DNA of 64,000 nt from Nocardia sp. BMG51109 (GTDB lineage: Bacteria; Actinomycetota; Actinomycetes; Mycobacteriales; Mycobacteriaceae), in the NCBI RefSeq assembly GCF_000526215.1, contig NZ_JAFQ01000004.1:6820001-6884000 (forward strand), read 5' to 3'. The translations under genes and the position numbers were made by a program. Below, piece by piece: positions 7,862-13,530 of this stretch (position 1 is the first letter of the stretch; the number at the start of each line of letters is the position of its first letter). The notes beneath the pieces are model-generated. The model was not told the origin of the DNA, made no database searches, and saw nothing but the letters and a program-made list of their open reading frames with translations.

Positions 7862-7904
7862 CGCGAAACTCCGCGAAACTCGTTGTCCGCGAGAACGTTC
7901 GAAC
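7862..7904. promoter_or_regulatory. Repeat-rich promoter region of the sulfur/PLP operon
   Basis: CGCGAAACTC occurs twice in perfect tandem (7862–7881), followed at 7893–7904 by overlapping palindromes GAACGTTC and GTTCGAAC. The block ends about 60 bases before the proposed TTG start of the operon. Such an arrangement could bind a regulator; it does not have the N4 spacing of a LexA box. Confidence 0.45.
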
Positions 7905-7966
7905 ACCTCACGAAAAGTGCGTATCGTGGATCGAGTCGGAGCGTTACGACCCGAAGGAGCGTCGCG

Positions 7967-9271
7967 TTGCGGTCACCTGCGCCATGGTCTGCCCCCGCCG
8001 GGCCACCGGCGGCCCGGGACCGGTCACCGGCGCCCCGCCGCGCGGATGTTCGCCCGCTGTTCCCCGCCCTCGCCGAGACCTCCGAGGTCTACCTCGACAG
8101 CGCCTCGACCACCCAGAAACCGCGCCCGGTGATCGAGGCCGTGCACCGCTACCACAGCACCCGCACCGCCAACGCCGGCCGGGGCACCTATCCGTGGGCG
8201 ACCGCCCTGACCCGCGACCTGGAGGGGGTGCGCGAGCACACCGCGCGATTCCTCGGCGCCGCACCCGACGAGGTGGTGTTCACCGCCGGTGCCACCGCCG
8301 GCCTCAACGCGGTCGCGCTCGCCTGGGGTCTGGCCGCGCTCGGCGACGGCGACGAAATCCTCTACAGCCCACGCGATCACGCCTCGAACGTCTATCCGTG
8401 GTGGCAGCTGCGCACCACGCTCGCCCGCTTCGGCCGGCACATCCGGCTGGTGCCCTACCGGGTGACGGCACTGGGCGAGGCCGACGTCGACGACATCGCC
8501 GCCAAGCTCACCCCGCGCACCCGGCTGATCACCGTCGCCCACCTGCACCACGTCTTCGGCGCGCTGAGCACCCTCGAGGAGTTGCGCGGCCGGATCGATC
8601 CGGGCGTGCTGCTGTGCTTCGACTGCAGCCAGAGCGGCGGGCACCTGCCGGTGCGGGTCACCGAGCTGGGCGCCGATTTCGCGGTGCTGTCGGCGCACAA
8701 GATGTTCGGGGCGCCCGGCACCGGCGTGCTCTACTGCCGCCGCCGCGTCCACGACCAGCTGACCGCGTTCCTGCCCGGCGGCAATTCCGGTGTGGCACCG
8801 GCGGAATCGGGCCTCGCGCCCCGGGCGATGCCCGCCCGGCTGGAGGGCGGTACACCCGATATCGCGGGCATTCTCGCCCTGGGCGCGGCACTGGATTTCC
8901 TCGACGAGGCCGGCCTCGATACGGTCGCCGCGCACAACCGGGCGCTGACCGAGCGGCTCGTCTCGGGCCTGCGCCCGCTGCCGGGACTGGAGTTCCTGCC
9001 CGGCCCCGCGCACGCGCCGTGCGACAACGGGTACGGCATCGTCTCCTTCACGCTCGACGGCATCGGATCCACCGATCTCGGATTCGTGCTCGCCGAGTTC
9101 GGTTTCCTGGTCCGCACCGGCGCACACTGCGTGCCGCCGCGCGGCGGGCCGGCCGGCCAGGCCGCCGCCGATGATGATTCGGTACGGGTGAGCACCCACC
9201 TGTACAACACCGCCGACGAGATCGACCGGTTCGTGCGGTGTGTCGCCACGATAGCCACGGAGGTCCGATGA
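7967..9271 (+). CDS. SufS/CsdA-type cysteine desulfurase-like PLP enzyme
   Basis: Class V aminotransferase-fold protein of about 434 residues. It has the SufS-style N-terminus (YLDSASTTQKP), the PLP-lysine motif SAHKMFGAPGTG (about Lys245), and the C-terminal loop RTGAHC with a cysteine (about Cys388) where group II desulfurases carry the persulfide cysteine. It should therefore release sulfur from cysteine or a related amino acid. The TTG start at 7967 is chosen for AAGGAG seven bases upstream; the frame stays open further back but without domain sequence. No sufBCD or sufU is present. It is the first gene of a four-gene operon and its stop overlaps the next ATG (ATGA). Confidence 0.85.
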   Translation: MRSPAPWSAPAGPPAARDRSPAPRRADVRPLFPALAETSEVYLDSASTTQKPRPVIEAVHRYHSTRTANAGRGTYPWATALTRDLEGVREHTARFLGAAPDEVVFTAGATAGLNAVALAWGLAALGDGDEILYSPRDHASNVYPWWQLRTTLARFGRHIRLVPYRVTALGEADVDDIAAKLTPRTRLITVAHLHHVFGALSTLEELRGRIDPGVLLCFDCSQSGGHLPVRVTELGADFAVLSAHKMFGAPGTGVLYCRRRVHDQLTAFLPGGNSGVAPAESGLAPRAMPARLEGGTPDIAGILALGAALDFLDEAGLDTVAAHNRALTERLVSGLRPLPGLEFLPGPAHAPCDNGYGIVSFTLDGIGSTDLGFVLAEFGFLVRTGAHCVPPRGGPAGQAAADDDSVRVSTHLYNTADEIDRFVRCVATIATEVR

Positions 9272-10548
9272 CTACCGACCAGGCGCAACCCCGCTACGAC
9301 CGGCGCGCGGCCTCCCGCGTCCTGGCCGGACTGGCCCGGCCGGGACTGTTCGCCGCGATACCGGCGCCGGGCGACACCCACATCGAATACACCTGCACGC
9401 CACTGCGTTTCGAACCCGGCAGCCATCTCACCCTGTCTCAGCGGCTGTATCTGGAGCGGTTCATGCCACCGTGCCGCCCCGACCAGGTGACCAGCGCGAC
9501 CCACCGCGTCGCCTGGACCGACTCCGACGGCATCCCCAACACCGGCCACATCCGCGACGGCGGGCTCGGCCCGATCGTGCCGATCGCCGTGCGCGAGACC
9601 GCGCTGCGCCTGTGGGGTGCGCTCGCCGCCGATACCGCACTGGCCCAGCGCATCTCGGCGCTTCGACCCGACGAGAGCGCGCTGCTCGCGGGCACCACCA
9701 CCGACCACGAACCGGTCGACATCTTCCGTGTCGGTATCGAGGCGTGTGGCCGCGCGCTGGCCCAGCACGCCCTGCTGGCCCGCTCGACGCCCTACCGTAC
9801 GCCCGTCGAATTCGCGTGCGGCATGCGCGATTCCGGCATATTCGGGGCGGTCGCCACGCGCTGGTTCTGGGAGTTGCAGGCCTCCACCTACCGGCGCGGC
9901 ATGATCCCGGTGTCGTTCGCCGCACAGTCCGACGGCAGCGTCCGCTACACCGCCGAGACCGTGGCGACCCTGCGGGCGATGAAGGACGCCACCATCGCCG
10001 ACGCGCACACCGTCATGCGGCGCGCCACCACCACCGAGGGACTGTCGGCGCCGGCGGCCATCGAGAAGTATCACGACGAGCTCGACCTGATCTCCCGCCA
10101 GTACGCGCTGCTGCCGCCGGGCACCCGCCCGGCCTGCCTGGCCGCCATGCCGCATCGCCTCGACGACGACCACTACAGCCTGCTGCCGGTGGTGGTGGAG
10201 CATTTCGTGGACCTGTTCCGCGACACCCTCACCCGGCTCACCGTCGCGCGGATACCCGCCGAATCCGAGCCCGGCACCGGCGACGATCTCGCCGCCGCGG
10301 ACCAGATCTTCTACGTGCCCGACATGAACTGCAAGCACTGCGTGCGCACCATCACCGGGGTGCTGGAGTCGATGCGGATCCGCGTGCACGACATCGACCT
10401 GATCAGCAAGCGGGTGGTGGCCGAGTTCCGCAGCCCGCGCAACCGGCATCGCGCGTTCGAGGCGCTGCGCGACGGCGGCTACAACCCGGCGCTCACCCGG
10501 GCGGCCGTGGCGGCCACCGCCTCCGGCGGCACGGACACCGCGGTATGA
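9268..10548 (+). CDS. Protein of unknown function with C-terminal HMA metal-binding domain
   Basis: 426 residues. The first 340 or so match no family I recognise. They are rich in Arg, His and Thr and contain several isolated cysteines (FMPPCRPDQ, IEACGRAL, EFACGMRDSG). The C-terminus is a heavy-metal-associated domain: FYVPDMNCKHCVRTITGVLES, with the MxCxxC site at about Cys355/Cys358, then the rest of the small alpha/beta fold. HMA domains bind Cu(I), Zn or similar metals and dock with partner HMA domains. Start ATG 9268 overlaps the desulfurase stop, with GGAGG upstream. Its stop overlaps the next gene (ATGA), so the proteins are co-translated. It may deliver metal to, or sense metal for, the pathway of its neighbours. 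Confidence 0.8.
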   Translation: MTTDQAQPRYDRRAASRVLAGLARPGLFAAIPAPGDTHIEYTCTPLRFEPGSHLTLSQRLYLERFMPPCRPDQVTSATHRVAWTDSDGIPNTGHIRDGGLGPIVPIAVRETALRLWGALAADTALAQRISALRPDESALLAGTTTDHEPVDIFRVGIEACGRALAQHALLARSTPYRTPVEFACGMRDSGIFGAVATRWFWELQASTYRRGMIPVSFAAQSDGSVRYTAETVATLRAMKDATIADAHTVMRRATTTEGLSAPAAIEKYHDELDLISRQYALLPPGTRPACLAAMPHRLDDDHYSLLPVVVEHFVDLFRDTLTRLTVARIPAESEPGTGDDLAAADQIFYVPDMNCKHCVRTITGVLESMRIRVHDIDLISKRVVAEFRSPRNRHRAFEALRDGGYNPALTRAAVAATASGGTDTAV

Positions 10549-12050
10549 CCTCCGCGGCGCCCACGCTGCCGGCCGCAACGCATCCGCTGGTACGCGCCTT
10601 CCTCGACACACCCGGCGCCGCCGAGGAGGCGGTGGCGCGCTTCGGCTCCCCCGCCCACCTGGTGTTCCCGCAGGTGTACACGGACAATCTGGACCGGCTG
10701 CGGTCGGTGCTGGAGGCCCGGCTGTCGCGGTACCGGATCTGCTACGCGCACAAGGTGAACCGGTCCCGCGCGCTGCTGCGCACCGCCGAGTCGGCCGGCA
10801 TCTCCGTCGACGTCGCGTCTCCGCGCGAACTCGCCGCGGCCGCCGACGCCGGATTCGGCCCGGCGCGCATCGAGGTCACCGGCCCCAAGGGCGAGGCGAT
10901 GCTGCGCGCACTCGTCGGCGCGGCGGTCACGATCAACGTCGACAATCCGTGGGAGCTGGACCGCATCGCCGAGCTGGCCGGTGAGCACACGCCCGTGCCG
11001 GTGCTGCTGCGGGTGTCGGGGTTCGAGGCGAGCGCGGTGAGCCGGTTCGGGATCCCGCTCACCGAGATCGAGCAGGCGCTGTCGGTGGCCTCGGCCCGGC
11101 GCGACCGGATCACGCTGCGCGGCTTCGCCTTCCACCTCGATTCCGGCGAGCAGGCCGAGCGGGTCCGGGCGGTGCAGGCCTGCCTGGAGCTGATCGAACG
11201 CGCCTACGGCCACGGCCTGGCGCCGACCGTGCTCGATATCGGCGGCGGGCTGCGCCAGGTGTTCACCGCCGACGCCGACCGGTTCGACGGCTATGTCGCC
11301 GCGCTGCGGGAGGCGCTGCTGGGCCGCGGCGAGCCGATGACCTGGGGCGGCAACACCTTCGGCTTCCATCTCGACGACACCGGTGTGCGCGGCACCCCCG
11401 TATTCCACAAATACGCCAACACCGTGCCCGCCGCCCGGATGCTCGACGAGCTGCTGTGCGCGCCGCTGGAGGCGCACGGCGGCCGCACCGTCGCCCAGGT
11501 CGCCGACGAGAATCTGCTCGAGCTGTGGCTGGAACCGGGCAAGGCGCTCGTCGACCATGCCGGAATCACCTGCGCCCGAGTCGAATTCGTGAAACGAGCC
11601 GCCGACGGCAGCGTGCTGGTCAACCTCGATCTCAGCCGCGACACCGTCACCCCGGCCGACCAGGAGGTGATGGTGGATCCGATCGTGTTGCCCGCCACCG
11701 GATCCGCCGAGCCCGCCACCGCGACCGGATCGGTCGGTGTGTTCTTCGCCGGACGACTGTGCCTGGAACGCGATCTGATCACCAATCACAAGGTCTGGCT
11801 CGACGCGCTGCCGCGGCCGGGTGACCTCGTGGTGTTCCCCAACACCGCCGCCTACCACTCCGACCTGTCGGCGGCCGCCGCATCCCTGCACCCGCTGCCG
11901 CCGAAACTGGCGGTCACACACCGCGACGGAATCTTCCACGTCTGCCGCGACGCCGACTACGACCCCACCCCGCCCCCCGAACACGCGCCGAGCACGCCAC
12001 CCCGCGCGCTCTCGCACACCCCGGCCCGGCCCACGCACGGGATGCCGTGA
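10545..12050 (+). CDS. Fold-III PLP-dependent decarboxylase (Y4yA/LysA/ODC-like)
   Basis: 501 residues with the alanine-racemase-type barrel of DAP/ornithine/arginine decarboxylases. PLP lysine is Lys70 in YAHKVN. VDVASPRELAAA, a FHLDSGEQ segment and the phosphate-binding LDIGGGL follow. The C-terminal beta domain has LEPGKAL and AGRLCLERD, the latter at the position of the family's catalytic cysteine. It probably decarboxylates an amino acid with a modified side chain. Similarity is greatest to the Y4yA group rather than to LysA, and no lysine-pathway genes are nearby. The last 30 residues are Pro-rich and look disordered. Start and stop overlap the neighbouring genes. Confidence 0.82.
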   Translation: MTSAAPTLPAATHPLVRAFLDTPGAAEEAVARFGSPAHLVFPQVYTDNLDRLRSVLEARLSRYRICYAHKVNRSRALLRTAESAGISVDVASPRELAAAADAGFGPARIEVTGPKGEAMLRALVGAAVTINVDNPWELDRIAELAGEHTPVPVLLRVSGFEASAVSRFGIPLTEIEQALSVASARRDRITLRGFAFHLDSGEQAERVRAVQACLELIERAYGHGLAPTVLDIGGGLRQVFTADADRFDGYVAALREALLGRGEPMTWGGNTFGFHLDDTGVRGTPVFHKYANTVPAARMLDELLCAPLEAHGGRTVAQVADENLLELWLEPGKALVDHAGITCARVEFVKRAADGSVLVNLDLSRDTVTPADQEVMVDPIVLPATGSAEPATATGSVGVFFAGRLCLERDLITNHKVWLDALPRPGDLVVFPNTAAYHSDLSAAAASLHPLPPKLAVTHRDGIFHVCRDADYDPTPPPEHAPSTPPRALSHTPARPTHGMP

Positions 12051-13390
12051 TGCGCTACGACCACATCACCGACCTGATCGGCAACACCCCGCTGCTGCGG
12101 CTTGATCCGGCCGTGCACGGCCTGGCCGGTGTGCAGCTGTACGCGAAACTGGAGTCCTGCAACCCGTTCGGCTCGGTGAAGGACCGCGTCGCGTGGGGCA
12201 TGATCCGCGACGAACTCGGCGAGATCACCGCGCACGGCCGCACCCTGATCGAGGCCTCCAGCGGCAACACCGCCAAGGCGCTGCGCATCCTGGGCGCCCT
12301 GCACGGGGTCGGGCTGCGCGCGGTCACCAACCGGATCAAGGTCACCGAGGTGCGCGACCTGCTGCAGCTGTTCGGCACCGAGATCGAGGAACTGCCCGGG
12401 CTGTCGGAATGCCCGGACCCCACCACCCCCAACGACGTCTACTCGGTCATCGAGTCGACCATGGCGAAAAGCCCCGGCGCCTACCATCATCCGTCGCAGT
12501 ACACCAACGACAAGAACGTCGAGGCGCACTACCACGGCACCGGCCGCGAGATCCACGAGGACCTCGCCCGCGACGGCGTGCACCGGATCGACTATCTCGC
12601 AGGCGGTCTCGGCACCACCGGCTCCACCCGCGGCGCGGCCTCGTATCTGCGCAAACACCATCCGGACCTGCGCGCGCTGGCGGTGGTGTCGGAGCGCTCG
12701 GACTTCATCCCCGGCATCCGCTCGGAAACCGAGATGTGGGAGGTGGGCCTGTTCCGGCCCGACTTCTACGACCACATCCTCACCGTCGACTCCGGCCGCG
12801 CCGTCGACGCCACCCTCGAACTGGCCACCGGCTACGGCATCCTGGCCGGGCCGACCAGCGGCGCCACCTACGCGGCGACACTGGATCACCTACGCTCCCT
12901 GGACGATTCGGCCCGCACCCGCGGCGATCCGCTCGTGGCCGTGTTCGTCGTATGCGACCGGCTCGAACCGTACCTGTCCTACATCAAGAAACGCCGCCCG
13001 GACCTGTTCGGCCGCACCGGTTCCCGCGCCGAACCACCGGCCGCGGCGGAACTCGACGCGGTCCCGGCGCTGTCCCCGCGGGCGCTGGCCGACCTGGACG
13101 CCACCGCCCGCCCGACCATCGTCGACACCCGCGGCGCGATGGCCTACCGGATCGGGCACGTGCCCGGCGCGCTGAACATCCGCGACGACCAACTCGACGA
13201 CATGTTCGCCCAGGGCGTCCCGTTCTCCCGCTCGCGCCCACTGGTTTTCGTCTGCCCGGTGGGCGAGGTGTCCCGGCGTTTCGCGGCACTGGCCCGGCGC
13301 GGCGGCTACGACGCGGCCAGCCTGGACGGCGGCATCGTCGCCTGGCGCGACGCCGGCATGCCGATGGAGACCGCACCGCGCCCGCACTGA
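12050..13390 (+). CDS. Cysteine synthase-family enzyme fused to a rhodanese domain
   Basis: 446 residues. Residues 1–320 are a fold-II beta-substituting PLP enzyme: LIGNTPLLRL, PLP lysine Lys44 in NPFGSVKDR, substrate loop EASSGNTAKAL, phosphate loop GLGTTGSTRG. Residues 345–440 are a rhodanese with VDTRGAMAYRIGHVPGALNI and an active-site cysteine (about Cys401) in CPVGEVSRR. The enzyme half could make a beta-substituted alanine from an activated serine, while the rhodanese could hand over a persulfide, perhaps charged by the desulfurase encoded first. ATG 12050 overlaps the previous TGA by one base. This is the last gene of the operon; a palindromic repeat follows. Confidence 0.85.
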   Translation: MRYDHITDLIGNTPLLRLDPAVHGLAGVQLYAKLESCNPFGSVKDRVAWGMIRDELGEITAHGRTLIEASSGNTAKALRILGALHGVGLRAVTNRIKVTEVRDLLQLFGTEIEELPGLSECPDPTTPNDVYSVIESTMAKSPGAYHHPSQYTNDKNVEAHYHGTGREIHEDLARDGVHRIDYLAGGLGTTGSTRGAASYLRKHHPDLRALAVVSERSDFIPGIRSETEMWEVGLFRPDFYDHILTVDSGRAVDATLELATGYGILAGPTSGATYAATLDHLRSLDDSARTRGDPLVAVFVVCDRLEPYLSYIKKRRPDLFGRTGSRAEPPAAAELDAVPALSPRALADLDATARPTIVDTRGAMAYRIGHVPGALNIRDDQLDDMFAQGVPFSRSRPLVFVCPVGEVSRRFAALARRGGYDAASLDGGIVAWRDAGMPMETAPRPH

Positions 13391-13430
13391 CCCCGGCTCA
13401 CACCAATATCCTGCTCACCCGCCACCCCAC

Positions 13431-13530
13431 TGCCATTCCGGCATGCCACCACTTCGTCATTCCGGCATGCTTCGGCCGGAATCCCGATCGGCAAGCGTGG
13501 ATCCCGGCCAAAAACACGCCGGGACGACGG
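13431..13530. repeat. Palindromic intergenic repeat of the CATTCCGGCATGC type
   Basis: ATTCCGGCATGC occurs twice (starting near 13435 and 13460). It is followed by GGCCGGAATCC, GGATCCCGGCC and CGCCGGGACGACGG, so the block can fold back on itself (CGTC…CCGG against CCGG…GACG). Blocks with this look occur as dispersed, mobile palindromes in many GC-rich genomes. The remainder of the gap up to 13670 shows nothing I recognise. Confidence 0.55.

Follow-up and report, generated by a model that had tools for sequence, protein, structure and literature searches.

Gene content of the operon

The window analysed here is a stretch of 64,000 nucleotides from Nocardia sp. BMG51109 (contig NZ_JAFQ01000004.1, positions 6,820,001 to 6,884,000, forward strand). 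Four genes, which we call A, B, C and D (together ABCD), lie at positions 7967-13390 of this window, all on the + strand and all with open, intact reading frames. Successive genes overlap by 4 bases (A/B), 4 bases (B/C) and 1 base (C/D), which would fit a single transcript with coupled translation. An initial annotation had described a SufS-like desulfurase with its persulfide cysteine, an HMA protein, a fold-III decarboxylase and a synthase-rhodanese fusion, overlapping by 1-4 bases. This description is confirmed by the open frames and the domain matches, and we add to it that about 340 N-terminal residues of B match no family.

Gene A (7967..9271, + strand, TTG start) encodes a SufS-like cysteine desulfurase of 434 residues, matched by Aminotran_5 (1e-86). 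The motif of type II desulfurases is given as RxGxHCA in PMC8300815. A carries RTGAHC, the persulfide cysteine Cys388 (codon 9128-9130) and the lysine that binds pyridoxal phosphate (PLP), features that place it in the type II (SufS) class. Conservation was counted after removing orthologue rows whose length was under 80% of that of the window protein, and the key residues are invariant among the rows that reach them. Cys388 is kept in 43 of 44 orthologues, the single gap fitting a locus (L025) described below, and the PLP lysine in 44 of 44. The score of A against the SufS subfamily model is 304.9 bits, under the cut-off of 475.1, and no suf genes were seen among its neighbours, which were read by eye. 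Against the model of the desulfurase cargo of family 2A encapsulins it scores 256.3 bits, under the cut-off of 800.

Gene B (9268..10548, + strand) encodes a protein of 426 residues, which profile searches divide into an N-terminal part (residues ~1-340) of no known family and a C-terminal HMA-type metal-binding domain (residues ~346-406, positions 10303-10485) with the motif MNCKHC. The HMA score of the window protein (P0002) is 19.0 bits, below the Pfam gathering threshold of 24.8. An HMA match at E<=1 is found in all 20 aligned B members and the CxxC motif in 53 of 53 rows, and on these grounds we assign the region as a predicted HMA domain. In the N-terminal domain Cys69, His79, His167 and Cys290 are also present in 53/53 rows, and many other residues of B are invariant. 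No relatives of this domain were found in Pfam, NCBIfam, PADLOC, PDB sequences, plasmids or phages. A diiron-oxidase reading, considered from the spacing of invariant His, Glu and Asp residues, was dropped because this spacing did not match the pattern of that family. Gene B is present in 150/150 Nocardia genomes. Among 396 genomes of the phylum, 11 gave matches to B: three of the same genus, extending beyond the HMA region, and eight weak ones, in or around the HMA part only. None was obtained in the 12 genomes of other genera of the same family among those listed. In two related genomes B stands alone, far from C-D and yet kept (L067:8806-10032 in G021; G469:C1:1202689-1203888).

Gene C (10545..12050, + strand) encodes a 501-residue, y4yA-like PLP decarboxylase of fold III (LysA/ornithine decarboxylase superfamily). 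Its match to Orn_Arg_deC_N scores 95.4 bits against a cut-off of 23.4 and places it in the fold-III superfamily; against the LysA model TIGR01048 it reaches 113.3 bits, under the cut-off of 297.9. The PLP lysine Lys70 and residues His197, Cys406 and Asp410 are identical in 51/51 orthologues. C and rhizobial y4yA share about 34% identity.

Gene D (12050..13390, + strand) encodes a fusion of 446 residues, with a cysteine-synthase-like PALP domain (residues ~1-310, positions 12050-12979) followed by a rhodanese domain (residues ~339-440, positions 13064-13369). The rhodanese match scores 54.4 bits against a Pfam gathering threshold of 22.2, and its sulfur-carrying Cys402 is encoded at 13253-13255. 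Both Cys402 and the PLP lysine Lys44 are found in 50/50 orthologues, and the asparagine of the SGNT motif is kept in D. The synthase half scores 161 bits against the cysKM subfamily model (cut-off 344.15) and 137.8 bits against the SbnA model TIGR03945 (cut-off 349.95), and no SbnB partner was seen adjoining. Entries for CysM, CysK, CBS and O-phosphoserine sulfhydrylase match D better than SbnA does; the cysteate synthase model matches D distantly, with 102.5 bits (cut-off 600), and the PDB matches include beta-cyanoalanine synthases. By the curated cut-offs, the predicted proteins of ABCD fall outside the SbnA, LysA, SufS and encapsulin cargo families.

Conservation in Nocardia and probable exchange of the desulfurase

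Among the first 20 loci of the same genus, 17 hold A-B-C-D in this order, including L025 (genome G028), in which A is matched in two frames. In L022 and L024 B-C-D are retained but A is reduced to a short C-terminal remnant, and L040 has C-D alone. A gene order that recurs across the genus is not a matter of chance. The initial annotation had proposed to abandon the idea of a functional set if the genes did not occur together elsewhere; they do, in 17 of 20 loci.

Some Nocardia genomes also carry a paralogous set, the sister module C'-D'-A', which encodes the same three enzyme types as the window, D' having the same fused rhodanese domain. Window and sister proteins are about 34-38% (C), 46-49% (D) and 38-43% (A) identical. 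The PLP lysine of C is found in 87/88 paralogues (one gap), and the loop that reads EPGK in C reads EPGR in 87/88 of them (one gap). Lys44 and Cys402 of D are kept in 89/89 paralogues and the persulfide cysteine of A in 87/89 (two gaps).

A D-type gene is present in 150/150 Nocardia genomes and D' in 19. Gene A is missing from 10 of the 150: its best match there has an E-value of 9.3e-60 to 3.8e-63, against 6.4e-130 or better in the other 140. All 10 genomes without A fall among the 19 carriers of D', and none among the 131 non-carriers (one-sided Fisher test 8e-11, uncorrected for kinship). Nine carriers retain A, while C, D and B are kept in all 10 genomes that lack it. The carriers are defined by D'; A' itself was examined in the 10 genomes lacking A and in G003 and G004, and is open in 9 of these 10. 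Two further cases concern the calling of A: in G472 it runs off the end of a contig, and in G499 the gene, matched only in part by the initial search, is open.

We placed the losses of A on a tree of 55 genomes chosen to hold the carriers of D', built from B, C and D sequences rather than as a species tree, with labels taken from search E-values. Six losses were counted, all in D' lineages, which make up a share of 0.253 of the branch length. The remnants of A differ among L022, L024 and L151, which fits separate loss events. The simplest reading of these sequence patterns seems to be that A' serves C-D in place of A, as a dedicated sulfur donor. If A' stands in where A has been lost, A would be a specific donor and not a general desulfurase. 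A general desulfurase also seems insufficient, since the genome of the window holds two other desulfurase-like genes, at 38-39% identity to A.

The sister module and its zinc context

A search with an alignment of D identified the sister module in Streptomyces, Kitasatospora, Nocardiopsis, Streptoalloteichus, Micromonospora, Actinoplanes, Paractinoplanes, Couchioplanes and some Nocardia. We analysed 89 sister loci (L068-L147, L052, L053, L055-L061), 80 of which are the best 80 of at least 579 D' candidates and lean towards Streptomyces. C' is present in 88 of the 89 and A' in 89. The module differs from the window operon in its order, C-D-A, in having no B and in its usual neighbour, a methyltransferase gene. 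A methyltransferase is found in 81/89 loci and belongs to one of two families (73 and 8 loci); in 72 loci a gene of the first family directly follows A' on the same strand.

Upstream regions were scanned for Zur-like boxes with a matrix that was seeded with a consensus and then trained on the regions preceding ribosomal, CobW, zinc-transporter and Zur genes of the same loci; the regions before C', D', A' and the methyltransferase genes were excluded from training. At a cut of 11 bits a box was found upstream of the methyltransferase in 71/73 and 7/8 cases, of C' in 18/88, of D' in 2/89, of A' in 0/90 and of other genes in 41/852. With a stricter cut of 18 bits the counts were 50/73 and 7/8 for the methyltransferase, 10/88 for C', 0/89 for D', 0/90 for A', 40/62 for ribosomal and CobW genes and 42/913 for others. 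Zinc-starvation markers (CobW, paralogues of L31, L28, S14 and S18, Zur, ZnuA/ZnuB) occur in 21/89 sister loci; genes of this kind are listed as members of actinobacterial Zur regulons in PMC6103462. These predicted sites and neighbours tie the sister module to zinc starvation, mainly through the methyltransferase.

An ATP-grasp gene was seen beside C'D'A' in only 2/89 loci: L138, where the genes also adjoin an Opp-type importer, and L055, where an ABC ATPase lies beside them (by eye). Such neighbours would fit a small ligated metal ligand. A small His-rich protein is encoded near the module in 11/89 loci (for example L053:8431-8733, a copy with no Pfam family match), and a gene guessed from its sequence to be acetyltransferase-like lies at or near it in 20/89 (for example L113:6784-7344).

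Promoter and neighbouring genes

An alignment of 18 upstream regions, including that of the window, revealed a promoter region conserved in the genus at 7875..7927 (+ strand), with the pattern GAAA...TTG..CGCGAGAA.NTTCGA...TGCGTATCGT. Its extended -10-like element (7918-7927, + strand) follows a pattern present in 17/18 of the regions. The TTG at 7967 is backed as the start of A by this promoter, by a GGAG-like ribosome site and by the aligned TTG or GTG start. The pattern TTCGA-N10-22-TGCGTATCGT has a single match in the whole genome, the operon promoter itself, and a regulon sharing this promoter was rejected as the search returned the operon alone.

From translations read by eye, the neighbours of the operon appear to encode a GMC-type oxidoreductase, a TerD-like protein, a lipoprotein, a PPOX-like protein, an NhaP-like antiporter and TetR/MFS genes. 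No Suf genes and no cysteine- or lysine-pathway genes were seen among them, in agreement with the initial annotation, which had noted that Fe-S assembly, cysteine and lysine pathway genes do not adjoin. Neither an SbnB-like dehydrogenase nor a siderophore synthetase nor IucA/IucC was seen adjoining ABCD. Downstream of D, positions 13420-13500 hold an intergenic repeat-like stretch with CATTCCGGCATGC. Elsewhere in the same genome two further clusters, L064 (G000:C4:7048000-7067000, checked against models) and L065 (G000:C4:771000-789500, read by eye), each appear to combine an SbnB-like dehydrogenase and an SbnA-like synthase with a y4yA-like decarboxylase and a MATE-like exporter, and ABC-importer-like genes lie close to L065 as well. 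Outside the window, genes were called with our own codon-usage caller rather than taken from annotation.

Discussion

The comparisons above, all made on sequences, show that the predicted active sites are intact, that the operon is conserved and that A is lost only where a paralogous module is present. We propose, with a probability of roughly 40%, that ABCD is a dedicated sulfur-relay biosynthetic pathway. Desulfurase A would draw sulfur from cysteine, carry it as a persulfide on Cys388 and pass it on to the rhodanese Cys402 of D. The relayed sulfur, or a nucleophile derived from it, would then react in the synthase half with an aminoacrylate that arises from a serine-type substrate, to give a sulfur-bearing beta-substituted alanine. 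C would decarboxylate this compound to a small amine of the aminothiol type. B would bind a soft metal, Cu or Zn, at the CxxC of its HMA domain and thus couple the product to metal handling.

The steps of this scheme differ in strength. We infer that A is the donor and D the acceptor, and this first transfer seems supported by both the evolutionary pattern and the residues: operons of both types keep the sulfur-carrying cysteines of A and of the rhodanese domain, which counts for a relay. The partnership of desulfurase and rhodanese suggested in the initial annotation has therefore gained support from the exchange of A by A' and from these unvarying cysteines. Also in favour of the scheme are the tight packing of the genes, the recurrence of its three enzymes in the sister module, the better match of D to CysM, CysK, CBS and O-phosphoserine sulfhydrylase entries than to SbnA, and the decarboxylase residues that C has kept. 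The later steps would follow from family chemistry, and our choices of substrate, product, metal and role for the N-terminal domain of B are guesses.

Several observations weigh against this proposal. To take sulfur from cysteine and build a cysteine-like product with it would be wasteful, except with an unusual acceptor, and all reactions of ABCD are predicted ones. Two genomes disturb the exchange pattern. In G032 (L055), where A is lost, A' contains one internal stop, possibly a draft error. In G028, which has no D', the gene A matched in two frames may be broken without a replacement or may reflect a draft error; counting it as a loss leaves 10 of 11 genomes (Fisher test 8e-10) and 6 of 7 events in agreement. 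B has no counterpart in the sister module, and no conserved transporter was seen adjoining ABCD. The other points concern zinc. No Zur-like box was found at the window promoter (score 4.4), so that Zur control of the operon was rejected, and only 2/18 ABCD promoters of the genus score 11 or more on the matrix. No zinc marker gene was found by tblastn in 26 control loci (20 ABCD loci, five third-type loci and the window), a count not quite alike to that in the sister loci, which came from protein clustering. Within the sister set itself, 70/88 upstream regions of C' have no Zur-like box and 68/89 loci show no zinc marker in the stretch fetched. As judged from these regions, the zinc link of the window operon is one of kinship only. 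The metal handling that the initial annotation attributed to the HMA protein thus finds a metal link in the CxxC-containing domain and in the zinc context of the sister module, but no Zur-like box at the promoter of the window.

ABCD can also be compared with the SbnA/SbnB/SbnH enzymes of the staphyloferrin B route and with the rhizobial y4yA clusters, which share with it a cysteine-synthase-like enzyme beside a fold-III decarboxylase. This kinship opens a nitrogen route, unlikely but serious, in which D is an SbnA-like synthase of the 2,3-diaminopropionate type and C an SbnH-like decarboxylase, yielding an ethylenediamine-type building block for a metallophore, with A and the rhodanese in a side role. 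It is favoured by the identity of C to y4yA, whose cluster in NGR234 contains a cysteine synthase, a gene of the octopine-dehydrogenase family, IucA/IucC and an MFS gene, by the related SbnB/y4yA/SbnA/MATE-like clusters in the same genus, and by the ATP-grasp genes beside C'D'A' in L138, with its Opp-type importer, and L055, with its ABC ATPase. However, the SbnB-like dehydrogenase or siderophore synthetase expected of such a route was not seen adjoining ABCD, D stays far under the SbnA cut-off, and the unvarying sulfur-carrying cysteines of A and D are left unexplained. ABCD differs from the Sbn and y4yA clusters in having a desulfurase, a rhodanese domain and an HMA protein, while no dehydrogenase, IucA/IucC or transporter was seen. 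The y4yA parallel drawn in the initial annotation accordingly holds for C, but not for the octopine-dehydrogenase family and IucA/IucC genes of NGR234, which were not seen by the operon. By analogy, we suggest that ABCD works like a sulfur version of the SbnA/SbnH pair.

In a quite unlikely alternative to the biosynthetic relay, sulfur is delivered to B itself: sulfane sulfur, or a thiol derived from D and C, would build a metal-thiolate or metal-sulfide site on B, a cofactor maturation without diffusible product. The presence of B throughout the genus, its unvarying CxxC and four N-terminal Cys and His residues, and its absence from the Zur-linked sister module would all suit such loading. 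On the other hand, protein persulfidation needs no decarboxylase, B lies far from C-D in G021 and G469, and the Cys/His pattern is weak evidence since many residues of B are invariant.

Less probable still is a role in cysteine supply or repair, with A and D recycling sulfane sulfur into cysteine and C acting on cysteine or a close analogue. A desulfurase, a rhodanese and a serine acetyltransferase are linked in the family 2A encapsulin operons, according to PMC8346489. Like ABCD, these operons pair a SufS-like desulfurase with a rhodanese; in ABCD, however, the rhodanese is fused to a synthase and a decarboxylase is present, and neither an encapsulin nor a serine acetyltransferase gene was seen adjoining the operon by eye, no model search having been made. 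Moreover, a decarboxylase accompanies D in nearly every locus, and a cysteine cycle would be futile. Rhodaneses release sulfite from thiosulfate, and a sulfonate route could be imagined in which D forms cysteate or sulfocysteine from rhodanese-handled sulfite or thiosulfate and C decarboxylates these to taurine-like compounds. We regard this as very improbable: the cysteate synthase match of D is distant and those to CysM and CysK are stronger, and such a route could do without A, whereas nearly every genome has A or A' together with D. Cyanide handling, with D as a beta-cyanoalanine synthase joined to a rhodanese, can practically be dismissed, for although both activities are known in the two families of D and beta-cyanoalanine synthases are among its PDB matches, it leaves the exchange of A, the presence of C and B and the zinc context unexplained, and reading the surroundings by eye showed neither a nitrilase nor a cyanogenic gene.

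Returning to the sulfur relay, its sister module shares a link between a small-molecule pathway and zinc starvation with coelibactin and EDDS (ethylenediaminedisuccinate), named as Zur-controlled metallophore clusters in PMC6103462; the likeness is one of description, and it differs for the window operon, which has no Zur-like box where the sister methyltransferase mostly has one. We found no published name for the C'-D'-A' module and, in open-licence full-text literature, no published description of the ABCD gene set, so that one may exist elsewhere. Tentatively, and with more doubt than confidence, we suggest that ABCD and its Zur-linked sister may be the source of a new class of small molecules that handle metals. 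These would be assembled from cysteine sulfur through a relay of desulfurase, rhodanese and synthase together with a decarboxylase, and would require neither non-ribosomal peptide nor siderophore synthetases. The Nocardia version, free of Zur control, would be linked to a metal-binding protein that contains a new domain, and the zinc-starvation version would be methylated.

Parts of this operon, B and a D-type gene, are present in all 150 Nocardia genomes and we found no function for them in the literature searched, which is a real gap in the biology of the genus. ABCD also adds a domain of no known family, the N-terminal part of B. The exchange of A by A' provides a direct genetic handle on the pairing of donor and acceptor in persulfide transfer. 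The zinc-linked sister module of Streptomyces offers a route to the product, and zinc depletion should induce its methyltransferase. Should the product turn out to be an aminothiol metal ligand, it would represent a type of metallophore made by PLP enzymes alone.

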